Below, in pieces: positions 6,478 through 31,374 of a stretch of DNA of 32,278 nt. The translations under genes were made by a program, and so were the position numbers. The first letter of the stretch is position 1. Each line of letters begins with the position of its first letter. The notes below the pieces were generated by a model. It made no database searches. It had not been told where the DNA came from and saw only the letters and a program-made list of their open reading frames with translations. Source of the stretch: Methanosarcinaceae archaeon. Its GTDB lineage: Archaea; Halobacteriota; Methanosarcinia; Methanosarcinales; Methanosarcinaceae. Location of the stretch: assembly GCA_016932675.1 (NCBI GenBank), contig JAFGCK010000061.1, positions 1 through 32,278 of the forward strand. The letters run 5' to 3'.

Positions 6478-6548
6478 TGCGGCTACCGGGATTCGAACCC
6501 GGGTTAGGGGCTTGGGAAGCCTCTGTCATGCCTCTAGACCATAACCGC
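6478..6548 (-). tRNA. tRNA-Gly (anticodon CCC)
   Basis: Read on the minus strand, the gene starts GCGGTTA and its 3' acceptor strand is TAGCCGC with discriminator A (6478), giving a 7-bp acceptor stem with one G-U pair. The D arm contains GGTCTAG and GGCA, the T arm is CCGGG-TTCGAAT-CCCGG, and the 7-nt anticodon loop TTCCCAA places CCC at 34-36 (glycine GGG codons). CCA is not encoded. The anticodon stem GAGGC/GCCCC contains an A-C opposition at 28-42. There is no intron. The gene lies just downstream of pscS on the same strand, with its own A/T-rich upstream region (6570-6600). Confidence 0.93.
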
Positions 6549-24854: not shown

Positions 24855-25871
24855 ATGATCGACCCGGTAAACAAATCCAGGATTCCCGATGAATGGTTTG
24901 AGCGCTCAAAATTACCCCGTAATGAACTGGAAAAAGGTATAATGAGCGGGATGCTTGTCTTGCTGAGCGATGGCTCCGTATTGAAAAGGGGATATACTAC
25001 CGGGACAACAGCGGCCCTTGCTGCAAAGGCAGCGGTCCTGTCACTTAAGGAGGACATCACCCACGTTTCTGTCCCTACACCTGTGGGACTGCGTGCCGAG
25101 CTGGACGTGAAGGCAAGCAAAGGACATGCTGTTGCCGTTAAGATGAACAATGACCATGAGTCGGATATCACAAGGGGCCTTGAGTTCGTGGCCGATGCAA
25201 GGGAAGCGGACGATATCCGGGTCTATTCAGGCCAGGGAATAGGTATTGTCACAAGAAGCGGCCTCGAATCCAGGAAAGGACATCCTGCCATTAATCCACG
25301 CCCCATGGAACAGATAAGGGCTTCCATTGCAGAGGGCGTGGAAGAACTCGGACTGAAAGGGGCCGAGGTCACCATATATCTTCCCGGGGGGAGGGAGATC
25401 GCAAAGAAGACACTTAACAGCCGTATCGGCATCATTGACGGCATATCCATACTGGGCACCACGGGTTTCGTTGAGCCCTGGAACGACCACCTTGGGGAGA
25501 TGAAAGGGGATCTTATCCGGGATTCTGACAGGGTGGTGCTCACAACAGGCAGGATAGGCATACGCTATTCTACCATGCTCTTCCCGGACCATACGGTCGT
25601 GCTTGCAGGCAGCCGGATCAGCGAGGCCCTGGAAGCTGCAAAGGGTGATGTTGTAATATGTGGCCTTCCCGGACTTGTGCTCAAGTGGGGCAACCCTGAC
25701 ATGCTCACTGGCAGCGGCTTTGCAACTGTTGTGGAAATGCTTGAACTGGACCCGCAGAACGAGCGTCTGAAAAAAGCCTTTGAGATGGCCGTTGAAAAAG
25801 GCAAAGGTGCCCGTATCGTGGTTGTTGCCAGGGATGGTACCGTGCTGATGGACAGTGGAGAGAGCAAATGA
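24855..25871 (+). CDS. cbiD: Cobalt-precorrin-5B C1-methyltransferase CbiD
   Basis: CbiD methylates C-1 of the corrin ring in the anaerobic B12 pathway using SAM. The 338-residue length fits, and the family signature [16 protein letters not shown] lies at 44-59; [14 protein letters not shown] and the GxPGxxxK-like [11 protein letters not shown] are present near the C-terminus. Archaeal forms carry the N-terminal RIPDEWF extension seen here. It starts 41 nt after mutL and overlaps cbiE by the ATGA arrangement, so the two are translationally coupled. Both act in the cytosol on cobalt-corrin intermediates. Confidence 0.94.
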
Positions 25872-26458
25872 TAATCGTGGGTGTGGGGGTCGGTCCCGGA
25901 ATGCTGACCCAGGAAGCCATCGGGACAATAAGCAATGCTCCTGTGGTCTATGGCTCTAAAAGGGCCATAGAACTTGCCCGGGAACACATAAGATGCGAAG
26001 CCCACCCCATCAAGAGTTTCAAGAACCTGCACCTTCTGCCTGCCGATGCAGTGATACTTTCCACAGGCGACCCCATGTTCTCCGGATTGGGTAAGTTCGC
26101 AGGAGAGAAAGACAGGGTCATTACGGGCATTTCATCCATACAGGCAGCATGTGCACGTTTTCATGTGGAGATGTCAAACCTTGCCATGATCACAGCCCAC
26201 GGAAGGGACCCTGCGCCTGCAAAAGCGGCCCTGATCAGGGAGCTTGAGATGGGAAAGAATATATTCCTGCTACCTGCTGACAATTTCGGTCCGCAGGAGG
26301 TTGCTGCAATCCTTAAAGAAAGGGGCATTGATGCCAGGATATGCATATATGAGAACATCGGTTATCCTGACGAGCGTGCAGTTATCGGGAGTGTCAGCGA
26401 GCCGCCTCTAAATGAATCCGACATGTACTGCCTGCTGGTCGTCAGACGATCAGAATGA
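25868..26458 (+). CDS. cbiE: Cobalt-precorrin-7 C5-methyltransferase CbiE
   Basis: The 196-residue tetrapyrrole methylase begins [14 protein letters not shown], the SAM-binding loop of the family, and has [13 protein letters not shown] (about 64-76) as the second conserved loop. It is the CbiE-only form; the decarboxylating CbiT partner is not fused and not present in the window. Its ATG overlaps the cbiD stop (ATGA). T tracts follow the stop, so cbiDE likely forms its own unit ahead of the cobalt-transport operon. Confidence 0.93.
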
Positions 26459-26601: not shown

Positions 26602-26658
26602 TTTACTATTATTACAAGTCGTTATCTTTATGTAGATTCATGATTTATCACCTTTATT

Positions 26659-26678
26659 AAATCAACTATAGTTGATTT
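26659..26678. promoter_or_regulatory. Perfect 20-bp palindrome, cbiM operator candidate
   Basis: The sequence AAATCAACTATAGTTGATTT reads the same on both strands. It overlaps a TATA-like TTTATTAAA (26653-26661) and ends 20 nt before the Shine-Dalgarno site of cbiM, the position expected for a repressor that blocks TBP/TFB or the transcription start. No other copy was noticed in the window. Confidence 0.65.
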
Positions 26679-26709: not shown

Positions 26710-27405
26710 TTGCATATATTTGAAGGTTTTCTGCCCTCCCCATGGTGGCAGATATGGTTTGTGATCTCTATTCCTGTTATAATGTATGGTATGTACCAGC
26801 TGAACAGACTGGTTAGCAAGAAACGTGAAATAGTGCCTCTGCTTGCTGTTGCAGGTGCATTTATATTTGTACTTTCATCACTGAAACTTCCTTCTGTTAC
26901 CGGGAGTTCCTCACACCCCACAGGTACCGGAATGGCAGCGATCCTCTTTGGACCTGCGATCACTTCTGTTCTCAGTGTCATTGTACTGCTTTACCAGGCC
27001 CTGTTCCTGGCACATGGGGGCCTGACAACACTGGGTGCAAACGTTGCATCAATGGGTATCATCGGTCCATTCGTTGCATTCATATTCTACAAAGCAGCAT
27101 CAAAAGCAGGCATGAATTTCTACCTGAACGTGTTCCTTGCAACAGCCATAGCTGACTGGGTAACATATGTTGTAACTTCTTTACAGCTTGCTCTGGCTTT
27201 CCCTGCACCCGAGGGAGGCGTTATGGCTTCGTTTGTAGCATTTGGGACTGTGTTTGCGACAACCCAGGTACCCCTTGCTATGATGGAAGGAGCACTCACC
27301 GCACTGATCATGAAATATGTGGTACAGATCAAGAGCGATGTGCTTGTTGACCTGAACGTGCTCACAAGCTCTGCTGTCACAAAACTCAAGGAGACCATGC
27401 AATGA
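26710..27405 (+). CDS. cbiM: Cobalt ECF transporter substrate-binding protein CbiM
   Basis: CbiM is the membrane S component that captures Co(II) for the CbiMNQO importer. Starting at TTG 26710 the product is 231 residues with N-terminus MHIFEGFLPSPWW, about six or seven hydrophobic segments and a conserved SSSHPTGTG loop (His69). The TTG is chosen because AGGTGAT lies four bases before it. The family also needs a free Met1-His2 N-terminus to hold the metal; the longer frame from ATG 26677 would bury it. It opens the cbiMNQO run; cbiN overlaps its stop by ATGA. Confidence 0.93.
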   Translation: MHIFEGFLPSPWWQIWFVISIPVIMYGMYQLNRLVSKKREIVPLLAVAGAFIFVLSSLKLPSVTGSSSHPTGTGMAAILFGPAITSVLSVIVLLYQALFLAHGGLTTLGANVASMGIIGPFVAFIFYKAASKAGMNFYLNVFLATAIADWVTYVVTSLQLALAFPAPEGGVMASFVAFGTVFATTQVPLAMMEGALTALIMKYVVQIKSDVLVDLNVLTSSAVTKLKETMQ

Positions 27406-27686
27406 AACTCGAATACCTTGTCGGGATAGTTGTATTGATTTTTGCGGCCCAGTTCTTCTATGGGCTGGCCGCAAATCCGGGTTCTGAATTCGGTGGGGCG
27501 GACGGTGCAGCAGAAGATGTGATCGCGGAGTTGGATCCGGATTACGAACCGTGGTTTGGAGGCATCGGCTTTGAACCACCTGGTGGCGAGACCGAAAGTC
27601 TGCTCTTTGCCCTCCAGGCGGCATTCGGTGCCGTTATAATCGGATATGTCATTGGATATTATAAGGGAAAAGGTGAGAGTAACTGA
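27402..27686 (+). CDS. cbiN: Cobalt transport protein CbiN
   Basis: The 94-residue protein has two transmembrane helices (about 5-24 and 66-85) around an acidic extracytoplasmic loop with Pro/Gly and FGGIGFEPP. That is the standard CbiN build; CbiN loads metal into CbiM. Its ATG overlaps the cbiM TGA, so the two are translationally coupled. Confidence 0.9.
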   Translation: MKLEYLVGIVVLIFAAQFFYGLAANPGSEFGGADGAAEDVIAELDPDYEPWFGGIGFEPPGGETESLLFALQAAFGAVIIGYVIGYYKGKGESN

Positions 27687-27970: not shown

Positions 27971-28753
27971 ATGACACATATCCTTGATGATTATGCCGTA
28001 TTGAGTCCACTCAGGTACAAGAATAACTGGCTCAAGCTGGCCATTGTTACCTTTGGCATCCTTACTGGCGTTTCGTCCAGCTCGCCCTGTGTTCCGTTTG
28101 TCATAGCCTTATGCATGGGTTTTGCAACTGTCCGTTTCGGAAAGATCTCTGCAGGGTTCTATCTGAGGCTGTTGGCTGCACCTGCCGGTTTTGTTTTAGT
28201 GAGTGCTGTGATCATAGCATTCTTCTTCGGAGAAGGTGCTAAATTATTTTCCTTAGGTGTCTGGGGCCTTACTCTGGGGGTGAGCGAAGCGGGCCTGAAT
28301 ATGGCCCTGCTGGTGCTCGCAAGGACCCTGGGAGGCATGTCCTGCCTCTTCTTCCTCTCTTTAACCACCCCCATGATAGAACTGTTCTCGGTACTCAAGG
28401 CTACAGGATTCCCTGACTCCTTTATTGAGATCGCGATGATGATGTACCGCTACATCTTTGTTTTCCTGGAAGTGGCAATGGGAGTGAAGTACGCACAGAC
28501 GGTCAGGCTGGGGTACAGGGATTTCAGGACATCCTTCAGGTCCATGGTTATGCTTGGAAGCAACCTTTTCATAAGGTCATGGGAACAGGGAGAAAAACTC
28601 TATGTGTCGATGAACGCAAGGTGTTATGACGGAAAGCTGATACTGCTTGACGAAAAAAGGCCTGTTAAATTACCGGAGGTCGTGCTGACCATAGCTTACT
28701 TTGCACTGGTCGTCACGGTATACTACTTTAGCAGGGGCATGTTCATAGTTTGA
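27971..28753 (+). CDS. cbiQ: ECF transporter transmembrane (T) component CbiQ
   Basis: The 260-residue membrane protein has five or six hydrophobic segments and the coupling motif MNARCYDG (about 215-222), the counterpart of the Ala-Arg-Gly helix that docks on the ATPase. It transmits ATP-driven movement from CbiO to CbiM. A Cys replaces the more usual Gly in the ARG triplet. cbiO follows after nine bases. Confidence 0.92.
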   Translation: MTHILDDYAVLSPLRYKNNWLKLAIVTFGILTGVSSSSPCVPFVIALCMGFATVRFGKISAGFYLRLLAAPAGFVLVSAVIIAFFFGEGAKLFSLGVWGLTLGVSEAGLNMALLVLARTLGGMSCLFFLSLTTPMIELFSVLKATGFPDSFIEIAMMMYRYIFVFLEVAMGVKYAQTVRLGYRDFRTSFRSMVMLGSNLFIRSWEQGEKLYVSMNARCYDGKLILLDEKRPVKLPEVVLTIAYFALVVTVYYFSRGMFIV

Positions 28754-28762
28754 GGTGAAAAT

Positions 28763-30115
28763 ATGGCGATACTGGAAACAAAGGATCTTGCTTTTTCCTA
28801 CCCTGATGGCACGCTTGCCCTGGATGATATCAATGTCAGAATAGAACAGGGGAAAAAAATAGCATTCGTCGGCCGCAACGGATCAGGTAAGTCCACACTG
28901 TTCCTGGCAATGAACGGTACCCATCGGCCAAAAAAAGGCGAGATACGTTTCCATGGCAAACCCATGAAATACGATTCAAAGTCCCTCAGGGAGATCCGGA
29001 AGAACATCGGCATCGTTTTCCAGAACTCCGATGACCAGATATTCGCTCCTACGATCTATCAGGATGTAGCTTTCGGACCTGTCAATCTGGGCTATCCAAA
29101 GGAGAAAGTGGAGGAGATCGTTCACAGAACCCTTGAATACGTTGGCCTGACGCACCTTAGGGACAAACCTCCCCACCACCTGAGTGGTGGACAGAAAAAG
29201 AGGGTTGCCATTGCAGGCATTATTGCCATGGATCCCGAGATAATCATTCTTGACGAGCCTCTTGCAAACCTGGACCCCGTCGGGGCAGATGAAGTGATGG
29301 ACCTGCTCAACGAACTGAACTATTTCGGAAAGACCATAATCATATCGACCCATGATGTGGATCTGGCCTACAGCTGGGCCGATTATATCTTTTTGATGAA
29401 CGAACGCAGGGTGATCAGTGAAGGTATGCCGGATGAGATCTTCATGCAGGATGAGAACCTGAAAGCTGCCTCCCTTAAAAGACCTGTGACCCTTGAGATG
29501 TATGAGGAGATCAAAAGACGTGGAATGGCAAGGTACCAATGCTGCCCCAGGAATATCCCCGACCTCGTTCATGCACTGCGTTCTCAGCACCTGCTCTGGG
29601 TGGATGTACCGCCGGAAGTGAAGGAAGGGGACTACGTCAACCTTGGAATACTCTATGGGGAATATGCCCAGAACTCTGCCTACGAGGCTGCAAACTGTAA
29701 GGTCCTGCACATACATGATGATGGACTTGCAATCGTAGAAATGGACAGGAAGGCCTTCCGGGCAGGTTCCATCGGCATATATGACACGGCCAGGCATTCC
29801 AGAGAAGAGCTTTTACAGGTCATGGAACGTGACGGGATCGAGTGTGTGGGCGCCATGGGCAAGAGGAGCAAGCTCCTGGCAGAAAGGGATGAGATACATC
29901 TTGATGTGACCGCCGGAGTCGTCGACCGCTCCATACTCAATGCACTTTCAGGCCAGAGGTGTCTTATTCTGACAAACGGGGGGATGGTGTACCATGCGCT
30001 GGAAAGGATCAGGAACTATATGGATAACAGCGGGTTGAACATTCCAGTAAATATCCTTAATCCGGGATCAGAAGAGGTTGTGAAGCAGGAAACTGCCAGA
30101 AGTATGGAGACGTGA
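28763..30115 (+). CDS. cbiO: Cobalt ECF ATPase CbiO with extra C-terminal domain
   Basis: Residues 1-250 form a normal ECF ABC ATPase: Walker [10 protein letters not shown] (37-45), Q-loop Q87, signature LSGGQ (140-144), Walker B IIILDEP (160-166) and switch H197. A CbiO normally ends near residue 280, but this protein continues to 450. The extension (about 255-450) begins with [16 protein letters not shown], then a beta-rich segment, then an alpha/beta part with [31 protein letters not shown] and [15 protein letters not shown] do not recognise the extension; it may be a regulatory or metal-responsive domain. It is the last gene of the operon and faces the wHTH regulator gene 42 nt away. Confidence 0.92.
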
Positions 30116-30157
30116 GGTCAGGACCCCTTTCTGATCGGTATTAAGGATGTGATGATA

Positions 30158-30733
30158 TTATTCATACACTTCTATGTTCAGGCGCAGTTTTGCAATAGGC
30201 TCGAGTTTTTTCCAGACCACCGTTGCATCTTCCCTGAAGGTACATTTTTGAACTGCCTGGTTACAGAGCTCTCCGTTCAGTTCATAGATATAATAACCCT
30301 CATCCCCGTTTGTTGCTATTACATGTTCTTTTCCATTCCTTTTTCTGGTTTCGATGATAGCTACACCTTTCAGGATATCAAGCAGATTGCTTCCTTTTTT
30401 TACTTTCACGTTTTTGACCGGTGCCAGGATGTCAAGTGAGCTGGCAACATCTTTATTGCTGATCCCCAGGACATGTGTTTTCCCGTAGATGCGTCTTTCA
30501 ATGATGTTCGCATTCTCAAGGATACTTACATGTTTTGATGCTACCGGAACCGACAGGTTCTGCTCGCGGGCCAGTTCCGAGATATATTTCTCATTCTCAT
30601 AGAGGCTCTGGATCATCCTCAGGCGGGTTTTGCTGTCCAGTGCATAGAATAAGTCCAAGAATCGTGAAATTTCAGCCTCCGACCCATCTTTGTTATCTTT
30701 TGAGCTCATGTAAATATCAAAAGCATATATCAT
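30158..30733 (-). CDS. ArsR-like wHTH regulator with DUF4430-like domain
   Basis: Residues 28-95 form an ArsR-type winged helix (LDSKTRLRMIQSL, ISELAREQNLSVPVASKHVSIL, then the beta wing). Residues 107-178 match the DUF4430 pattern, the domain that forms the C-terminal half of vertebrate transcobalamin: a LLDILK helix, GYYIYELNG, and then exactly 20 residues to a Trp in VVWKK. The order and spacing fit well, although identity is low. The ArsR half has no obvious metal-binding CxC. Gene position, convergent and 42 nt from cbiO, suggests control of cobalt or corrinoid genes. ATG 30733 is used; ATG 30709 is an alternative. DNA target and ligand are inferred. Confidence 0.82.
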   Translation of the reverse strand: MIYAFDIYMSSKDNKDGSEAEISRFLDLFYALDSKTRLRMIQSLYENEKYISELAREQNLSVPVASKHVSILENANIIERRIYGKTHVLGISNKDVASSLDILAPVKNVKVKKGSNLLDILKGVAIIETRKRNGKEHVIATNGDEGYYIYELNGELCNQAVQKCTFREDATVVWKKLEPIAKLRLNIEVYE

Positions 30734-31121
30734 GTATAAAAATGTTCCTTAGACCCGTTGATATAATTCTTACAAGCATATCCATAAATAATAAAATTGT
30801 AGAGTGGCTGGACTTTATAACGTAATTAAAACAAAAAATGTCACCATGATCTTACAGAAAGGTGCATGGAATGATCCAAGTATTTTCGGCTAACAGGAGA
30901 GCTGACATCCAAAGCGGCGAAGTACACACAAAAATAGACATGGATGCAGGTACTTGAGACTATAAATGCTCACATAAAAGAAGGTTTGCAGATCTGAGGA
31001 ACACCAGTCAATTGACCGTTGCCCGACAAGCATATTGCCAATTATTGCTGGAATCGGTCATCAGCAGAATACTGAAGACCTTTACATAAGCGAATTTCAA
31101 AGTTCCGGACACAGAGTGCCC
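30734..31121. other. Non-coding region upstream of the regulator
   Basis: No convincing gene is seen. The regulator promoter should lie at 30740-30800 on the minus strand, where TTATATC and a GTTGAT half-site of the cbiM palindrome (30763-30768 on the plus strand) are found. A 28-codon plus-strand frame at 30871-30957 has GGTG before its ATG but no other support. Confidence 0.45.
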
Positions 31122-31179: not shown

Positions 31180-31374
31180 TCAGGCTTTAACAGCAACCAG
31201 CGAAAGACCAAGTTTGCCTTCCACTTCTTCGATCTGCTTCAGTTCATCAGCTGACAGCTGTGCATTCTTGATGTCCTGTCCTGAAAAGGCCAGAAGCGTG
31301 ACATCCAGCTTTTTCTCAAGTTCCTCAATGGCCTTTACTGTTGATTCGTCAAGTTTTGAATAGCTCCATAACAT
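31180..31374 (-). CDS. Small two-repeat protein of unknown function
   Basis: The 64-residue acidic protein has two similar halves: residues 12-31 (TVKAIEELEKKLDVTLLAFS) and about 44-63 (ELKQIEEVEGKLGLSLVAVK). Each consists of a helix followed by a short beta strand, with roughly half of the positions identical. The clear helical periodicity and the balanced codon use argue that it is real. GGAG nine bases before the ATG, a palindrome over the promoter and an intrinsic terminator after it make a self-contained transcription unit. I do not recognise a named family; a compact beta-alpha dimer that binds a ligand or protein is possible. Confidence 0.72.
   Translation of the reverse strand: MLWSYSKLDESTVKAIEELEKKLDVTLLAFSGQDIKNAQLSADELKQIEEVEGKLGLSLVAVKA

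Follow-up and report, generated by a model that had tools for sequence, protein, structure and literature searches.

A winged-helix protein with a predicted transcobalamin-type domain as a candidate corrinoid-responsive regulator in Methanosarcinales

The stretch of DNA analysed here (the window; 32,278 nt, contig JAFGCK010000061.1 of the Methanosarcinaceae archaeon assembly GCA_016932675.1) encodes, beside its cobalt-uptake genes, a protein in which an ArsR-type winged helix-turn-helix (wHTH) is followed by a domain with the predicted beta-grasp fold of transcobalamin. We propose that this protein is probably a cytoplasmic one-component, corrinoid-responsive transcription factor that controls corrinoid and cobalt acquisition in Methanosarcinales, most likely by lowering uptake under sufficiency. 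The open reading frame (ORF) at 30158-30733 (minus strand, 191 codons) was confirmed in the window, and it belongs to an order-wide family and is not a chance ORF, since strong matches were found in 129/185 genomes of the order. The features of the gene are as follows.

30158..30709, minus strand: wHTH-DUF4430 regulator gene, 183 amino acids, from the start used by relatives
30497..30634, minus strand: ArsR-type winged helix PF01022, residues 34-79 of the 191-residue frame
30209..30388, minus strand: DUF4430/transcobalamin-type beta-grasp domain, residues 116-175 (sub-threshold Pfam match), modelled as residues 100-191
30311..30355, minus strand: beta-hairpin after the helix, residues 127-141, from structure prediction
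30730..30742, minus strand: TATA-like element upstream of the regulator start

The winged helix scores 37 bits with PF01022 (HTH_5; cut-off 22), which places it in that family and bears out the ArsR-like winged helix that an earlier note on this DNA had recognised. A PDB sequence search with the whole protein gave ArsR-type chains at its significant end (best E 5e-05), and the best 50 rows of a full-length Foldseek search were all ArsR-type winged helices, with no B12 carrier among them; for this reason the C-terminal domain was modelled alone. The isolated domain is predicted to adopt the beta-grasp fold of the transcobalamin beta domain, as the earlier note had anticipated, with 14-16% identity to transcobalamin-type carriers in structural alignments. 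Strands 127-132 and 135-141 form a predicted hairpin between the helix and the next strand, before core strand 3, and it is this hairpin position after the helix that the ligand-contacting insert occupies in the transcobalamin clade, according to PMC1796856 and PMC1949818. Positions 148 and 150 are aromatic (Tyr or Phe) in 91/91 distinct sequences and are candidate counterparts of the hydrophobic or aromatic ligand contact of this clade. The predicted fold, including the hairpin, is thus held in common with the beta domain of transcobalamin, haptocorrin and intrinsic factor, although these animal carriers possess an additional alpha domain, whereas here a lone domain is attached to a DNA-binding unit. 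At the level of the family, 37/39 C-terminal domains match PF14478 (DUF4430) at E<=0.1 (best 1.5e-8), and its cut-off of 23.8 bits was reached by 4/8 scanned relatives (23.8, 24.1, 28.8 and 30.9 bits, the last two being near-identical proteins).

The 129 genomes that carry the family were counted manually (best E<=3.5e-52; some best matches contain a stop). A tally at E<=0.001 reaches 163/185 genomes of the order, including 34 with weak matches alone (best E 1e-10 to 6e-4), which are probably ordinary ArsR proteins. In a sample of the phylum, the C-terminal domain was matched at E<=1e-6 in 109/392 genomes, and the matches listed fall in the order of the window and in two families outside its class, f10 and, once, f21; three loci (L079, from ANME-1, L078 and L080) probably belong to the f10 lineage on the basis of shared neighbours and the tree. 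In this sample, 10/20 genomes of the window's genus hold two or three C-domain matches, and a quick tree with many open forks separates two paralogue types in the genus, a window-like type and a more widespread second type. The second copy in the window's own genome (G000:C163:9279-9808; L111, L112) is interrupted: its matches fall in two frames and one of them contains a TGA, which may reflect either an assembly error or decay.

The gene context of the family in Methanosarcinales is non-random. Within eight genes of the regulator, specific corrinoid or cobalt genes occur in 48/80 loci, or 51/80 if BtuF/BtuC-like genes are counted. In 40 long-contig Methanosarcinales regions, hand-picked and therefore non-random, from ~150 listed places after related loci had already been inspected, such genes were present in 28, against 4/80 regions at random positions in the same contigs, which were not matched for holding a regulator and of which L216 and L217 overlap (Fisher p 6.6e-14, shared ancestry ignored). 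CbiO-type matches were excluded from the count, as ATP-binding cassette (ABC) ATPases are common and were found in 13/80 controls. By genus group, corrinoid context was found in 14/17 for g1 (Methanolobus, the genus of the window, as judged from identical sequences), 11/11 for g13 (probably Methanosarcina, by gene arrangement), 1/1 for g5, 1/2 for g9 and 1/2 for g12. The arrangements themselves vary, the neighbours in the 80 loci being assigned to Pfam from one representative per cluster. In L055, L060 and L064 the regulator is followed on the same strand by genes for a periplasmic binding protein, FecCD, an ABC ATPase and CbiZ, while L030 carries these four types upstream of the regulator together with CbiM and CbiO, and in L076 CbiM lies next downstream. 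Many second-type Methanolobus copies have a CbiZ-domain gene two positions upstream; in Methanosarcina, the regulator is divergent from DUF2162, ExbB-type, DUF2149 and CobN genes. In the window, cbiMNQO stands tail to tail with the regulator, and in L003 two small genes separate the regulator from the cbiMNQO end. The neighbourhood in the window, with the candidate operators discussed below, comprises the following elements.

30116..30157: 42-nt gap where the regulator gene and cbiO converge
28763..30115, plus strand: cbiO, cobalt energy-coupling factor transporter ATPase with a C-terminal extension
27971..28753, plus strand: cbiQ
27402..27686, plus strand: cbiN
26710..27405, plus strand: cbiM, with a likely TTG start at 26710 and a longer ORF from 26677
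26660..26677: candidate operator 2, a perfect 18-bp palindrome AATCAACTATAGTTGATT ahead of cbiM, with a variant form ahead of cbiM in congeners
26621..26641, plus strand: candidate operator 1, degraded, a TATA-centred dyad intact in most congeners, its right arm lost in the window
25868..26458, plus strand: cbiE, cobalt-precorrin-7 C5-methyltransferase
24855..25871, plus strand: cbiD-like ORF (putative cbiD), conserved beside cbiE in congeners too

Conserved dyads and boxes near these genes are candidate operators of the regulator family. Dyad 1 is a 21-bp element with a TATA-like box at its centre in the Methanolobus cbiE-cbiM gap; with <=2 mismatches it gave 29 matches in 24/27 genomes of the genus, and 18/20 fetched loci lie between cbiE and cbiM. 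Since the reversed pattern also gives 14 matches, dyad 1 is by itself not very specific. About 20 bp downstream lies dyad 2, whose pattern AATCAACTWTAGTTGWTT (<=1 mismatch) gave 15 matches, palindromes counted on both strands, in 11/27 genomes, against 3 for the control; the 12 fetched loci comprise 8 at cbi genes, 1 beside DUF2162/DUF2149 genes and 3 near none of the gene panel. A looser form, AATCAAN6TTGATTT, gave 38 matches in 20/27 genomes, whereas its reversal, which controls poorly for composition, gave 1; 10 of the 30 fetched loci of the looser form (7 distinct sites) are at cbi genes, the others being at unrelated genes, some at the ends of coding frames. Because most of the looser-pattern loci lie at unrelated genes, dyad 2 is weak as a regulon marker. 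In Methanosarcina, the intergenic region between the regulator and DUF2162 (e.g. L070 9513-9982) carries an 8-bp word twice, in copies that face each other (CAAGTAAA and TTTACTTG) and are strongly conserved in an 18-sequence alignment except in L075; the strict pattern of these boxes occurs in 11/30 genomes, once each, and 10/10 fetched loci lie between the regulator and the DUF2162 gene. These boxes do not share a motif with the dyads of Methanolobus. Separately, the dyad-2-like site beside DUF2162/DUF2149 genes lies in a Methanolobus-type genome (L275 around 1501, G113:C8:88253) and is perhaps a second target.

In the mechanism that we propose, the ArsR-type winged helix would bind DNA, and the transcobalamin-type beta-grasp domain would bind a corrinoid, be it a cobamide or one of its precursors (for instance cobinamide), and thereby signal the corrinoid supply. 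Occupancy of the beta-grasp domain would change DNA binding, and the uptake genes would follow. The targets of the family would differ between groups: in Methanolobus they would be cbiMNQO, in Methanosarcina the DUF2162/CobN cluster, in ANME-2-type archaea the genes of a BtuFCD-like transporter together with CbiZ, and elsewhere CbiZ. Repression under sufficiency is favoured because uptake genes are usually governed in this way, and it would fit dyads placed over the promoter. A narrower formulation is put forward tentatively, as one possibility: in Methanosarcinales the regulator would detect cobamide or cobinamide with its single transcobalamin-type domain and would then shut off the acquisition of corrinoid and cobalt, in Methanolobus by binding the dyads that cover the TATA box and the cbiMNQO start region.

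A number of observations weigh against a corrinoid-responsive regulator of uptake genes. At the level of the protein, PF14478 scores 13.5 bits (E 0.1, residues 116-175) on the window protein and 14.9 bits on its isolated C-terminal domain, and a PF14478 search of the window's own genome gave nothing at E<=0.001; the DUF4430 segment claimed by the earlier note therefore stands by its predicted fold and by the matches of relatives, but not by its own score. A profile of the C-terminal domain found nothing credible among PDB sequences (best E 0.33) and not one B12 carrier. The link to transcobalamin thus comes from predicted structure together with Pfam matches. The gene was said to lie 42 nt from cbiO, and the gap is right, but the two genes are convergent on opposite strands and the regulator lies outside the cbi operon. 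Dyad 1 (<=2 mismatches) is broken in the window and, of the 27 genomes searched, absent from the window's genome, G123 and G133. In G116, G118, G131 and G132 the sole regulator copy found sits in a region without cbiM, yet dyad 1 precedes cbiM; dyad 1 therefore does not need a window-type copy and could be the site of the second paralogue or of a different regulator. With respect to context, 32/80 loci have no specific corrinoid gene (29 even when BtuF/BtuC-like genes are counted, many on short contigs), as do 12/40 of the Methanosarcinales regions, and such context is absent in g7 (0/3, one with BtuF/BtuC-like genes only), g10 (0/3) and g16 (0/1). In the second archaeal lineage, blastp at E<=1e-6 with Methanosarcinales queries, a panel that may miss distant genes there, found a specific corrinoid gene in 0/5 fetched 11-kb stretches, one of which has a generic ABC ATPase. 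The expectation that homologues lie near cobalt or B12 genes is thus borne out for Methanosarcinales overall, but not for the second lineage or for these three groups.

Control of the cbi genes by a B12 riboswitch, with the protein incidental, would be the usual bacterial way of corrinoid regulation. We regard it as highly improbable: when the whole window was scanned against Rfam at gathering thresholds, the single match was a transfer RNA gene at 6478-6548 (minus strand), and no cobalamin riboswitch was found. It could also be that the protein is an ArsR/SmtB-type cobalt or nickel sensor that binds metal on the winged helix, the DUF4430 domain being a dimerisation or accessory part. The adjoining cobalt transporter would suit such a sensor, as would the best NCBIfam match, the metalloregulator subfamily NF033788 (50.3 bits, under its cut-off of 55), and three His columns (50, 68 and 87) that are nearly invariant in the 91 distinct sequences. 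Set beside the ArsR/SmtB metalloregulators, with which it has the winged-helix fold in common, the family differs in that no column where the window has a residue shows Cys in at least 80% of these sequences; moreover, the His50 column holds Tyr in the window protein, and the CbiZ neighbours, judging by their family name, act on corrinoids and not on free metal. We thus consider a metal sensor distinctly unlikely, and a corrinoid is favoured over free cobalt because of the CbiZ and Btu-like neighbours, with which the lack of a Cys column agrees, though the three His columns remain despite this preference.

The beta-grasp domain could also bind another solute, or none, in a regulator with some other function; the corrinoid genes around it would then be baggage of the region. 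The corrinoid context missing from the second lineage and several genus groups is consistent with this, as are copies that adjoin DNA-repair-like, his or pilus-type genes, and in 2007 a referee of PMC1796856 doubted that all such domains bind B12, whereupon the authors softened their wording. However, several unlike corrinoid arrangements across lineages are hard to explain as baggage, and we judge this alternative unlikely, though conceivable.

The corrinoid-responsive transcription factor that we prefer has a precedent. In 2007 Burroughs et al. (PMC1796856) suggested that fusions of ArsR and SLBB domains in Methanosarcina are transcription factors that respond to B12, to its precursors or to a different ligand, and the paper also ties extracellular SLBB proteins to CbiO/CbiQ operons; PMC1949818, PMC2667541 and PMC3510493 are related prior papers. 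Methanosarcina members (L050-L077 among others) are included in the family surveyed. The window protein joins an ArsR-like wHTH to an SLBB domain of the transcobalamin clade and belongs to this predicted class, of which gi:72395507 is the 2007 example, by its two-domain architecture; the proposed one-component role is also the same. That account offers architecture and inference, with no gene neighbourhood, structure model or operator in the text parts seen. The earlier note's reading as a corrinoid-sensing repressor is accordingly plausible, and it is a well-supported hypothesis as regards the predicted fold and the Methanosarcinales context, but not as regards the second-lineage context, nor in its claim of a new regulator type in archaea, which is not right as stated given the 2007 proposal (PMC1796856). 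Another ArsR-family regulator, MM2441, has been studied in M. mazei together with sRNA162 (PMC3510493). Judged by its reported neighbours (MM2440, MM2442 and the sRNA gene), which do not resemble the DUF2162/fibrillarin surroundings of the Methanosarcina members described here, it was not treated as a family member, although it may be one.

Among the matches listed, the open-licence literature yielded neither an experimental study of such a regulator nor a described corrinoid-responsive regulator for methylotrophic methanogens. These organisms run their energy metabolism on corrinoid proteins, and a regulator with defined candidate targets would render the question of corrinoid regulation testable and would put the 2007 prediction to work. 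It would, like the CarH-type B12 photoreceptor repressors, be a B12-binding transcription factor, although the latter are bacterial, light-dependent and built from other DNA-binding and B12-binding domains. If the proposed reading is true, the fold of the animal B12 carriers would also be an intracellular gene switch in archaea, acting there as a sensor.

With regard to the start of the gene, the protein most likely has 183 amino acids, because relatives start at an internal ATG at 30709, eight codons inside the 30158-30733 ORF, and a TATA-like element lies 25-33 nt 5' of this ATG. In close Methanolobus relatives, an alignment judged by eye showed no conserved block upstream of the regulator beyond the TATA element. 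Further upstream on the same strand, a 64-residue ORF with an internal repeat (31180-31374, minus strand; also L003 9617-9811) has no Pfam or NCBIfam match over cut-off.

Several minor observations concern the neighbouring genes. The C-terminal extension of cbiO comprises ~190 residues (about 256-450), and the cbiO homologue in L030 (3376-4830) has a DUF7839 match in the extension at 23.2 bits against a cut-off of 27. One gene family lies 1-5 genes upstream of the regulator in L001, L002, L025, L034, L035, L041 and L042, and Pfam assigns the L001 protein of this family to the type II/IV secretion ATPases. L079, which probably belongs to the second lineage, has two periplasmic-binding-protein genes nearby, and in 4/5 stretches of that lineage (L336, L337, L339 and L340) the gene directly upstream resembles, by eye, an ADP-ribosylglycohydrolase, a conserved pairing with no relation to corrinoids.
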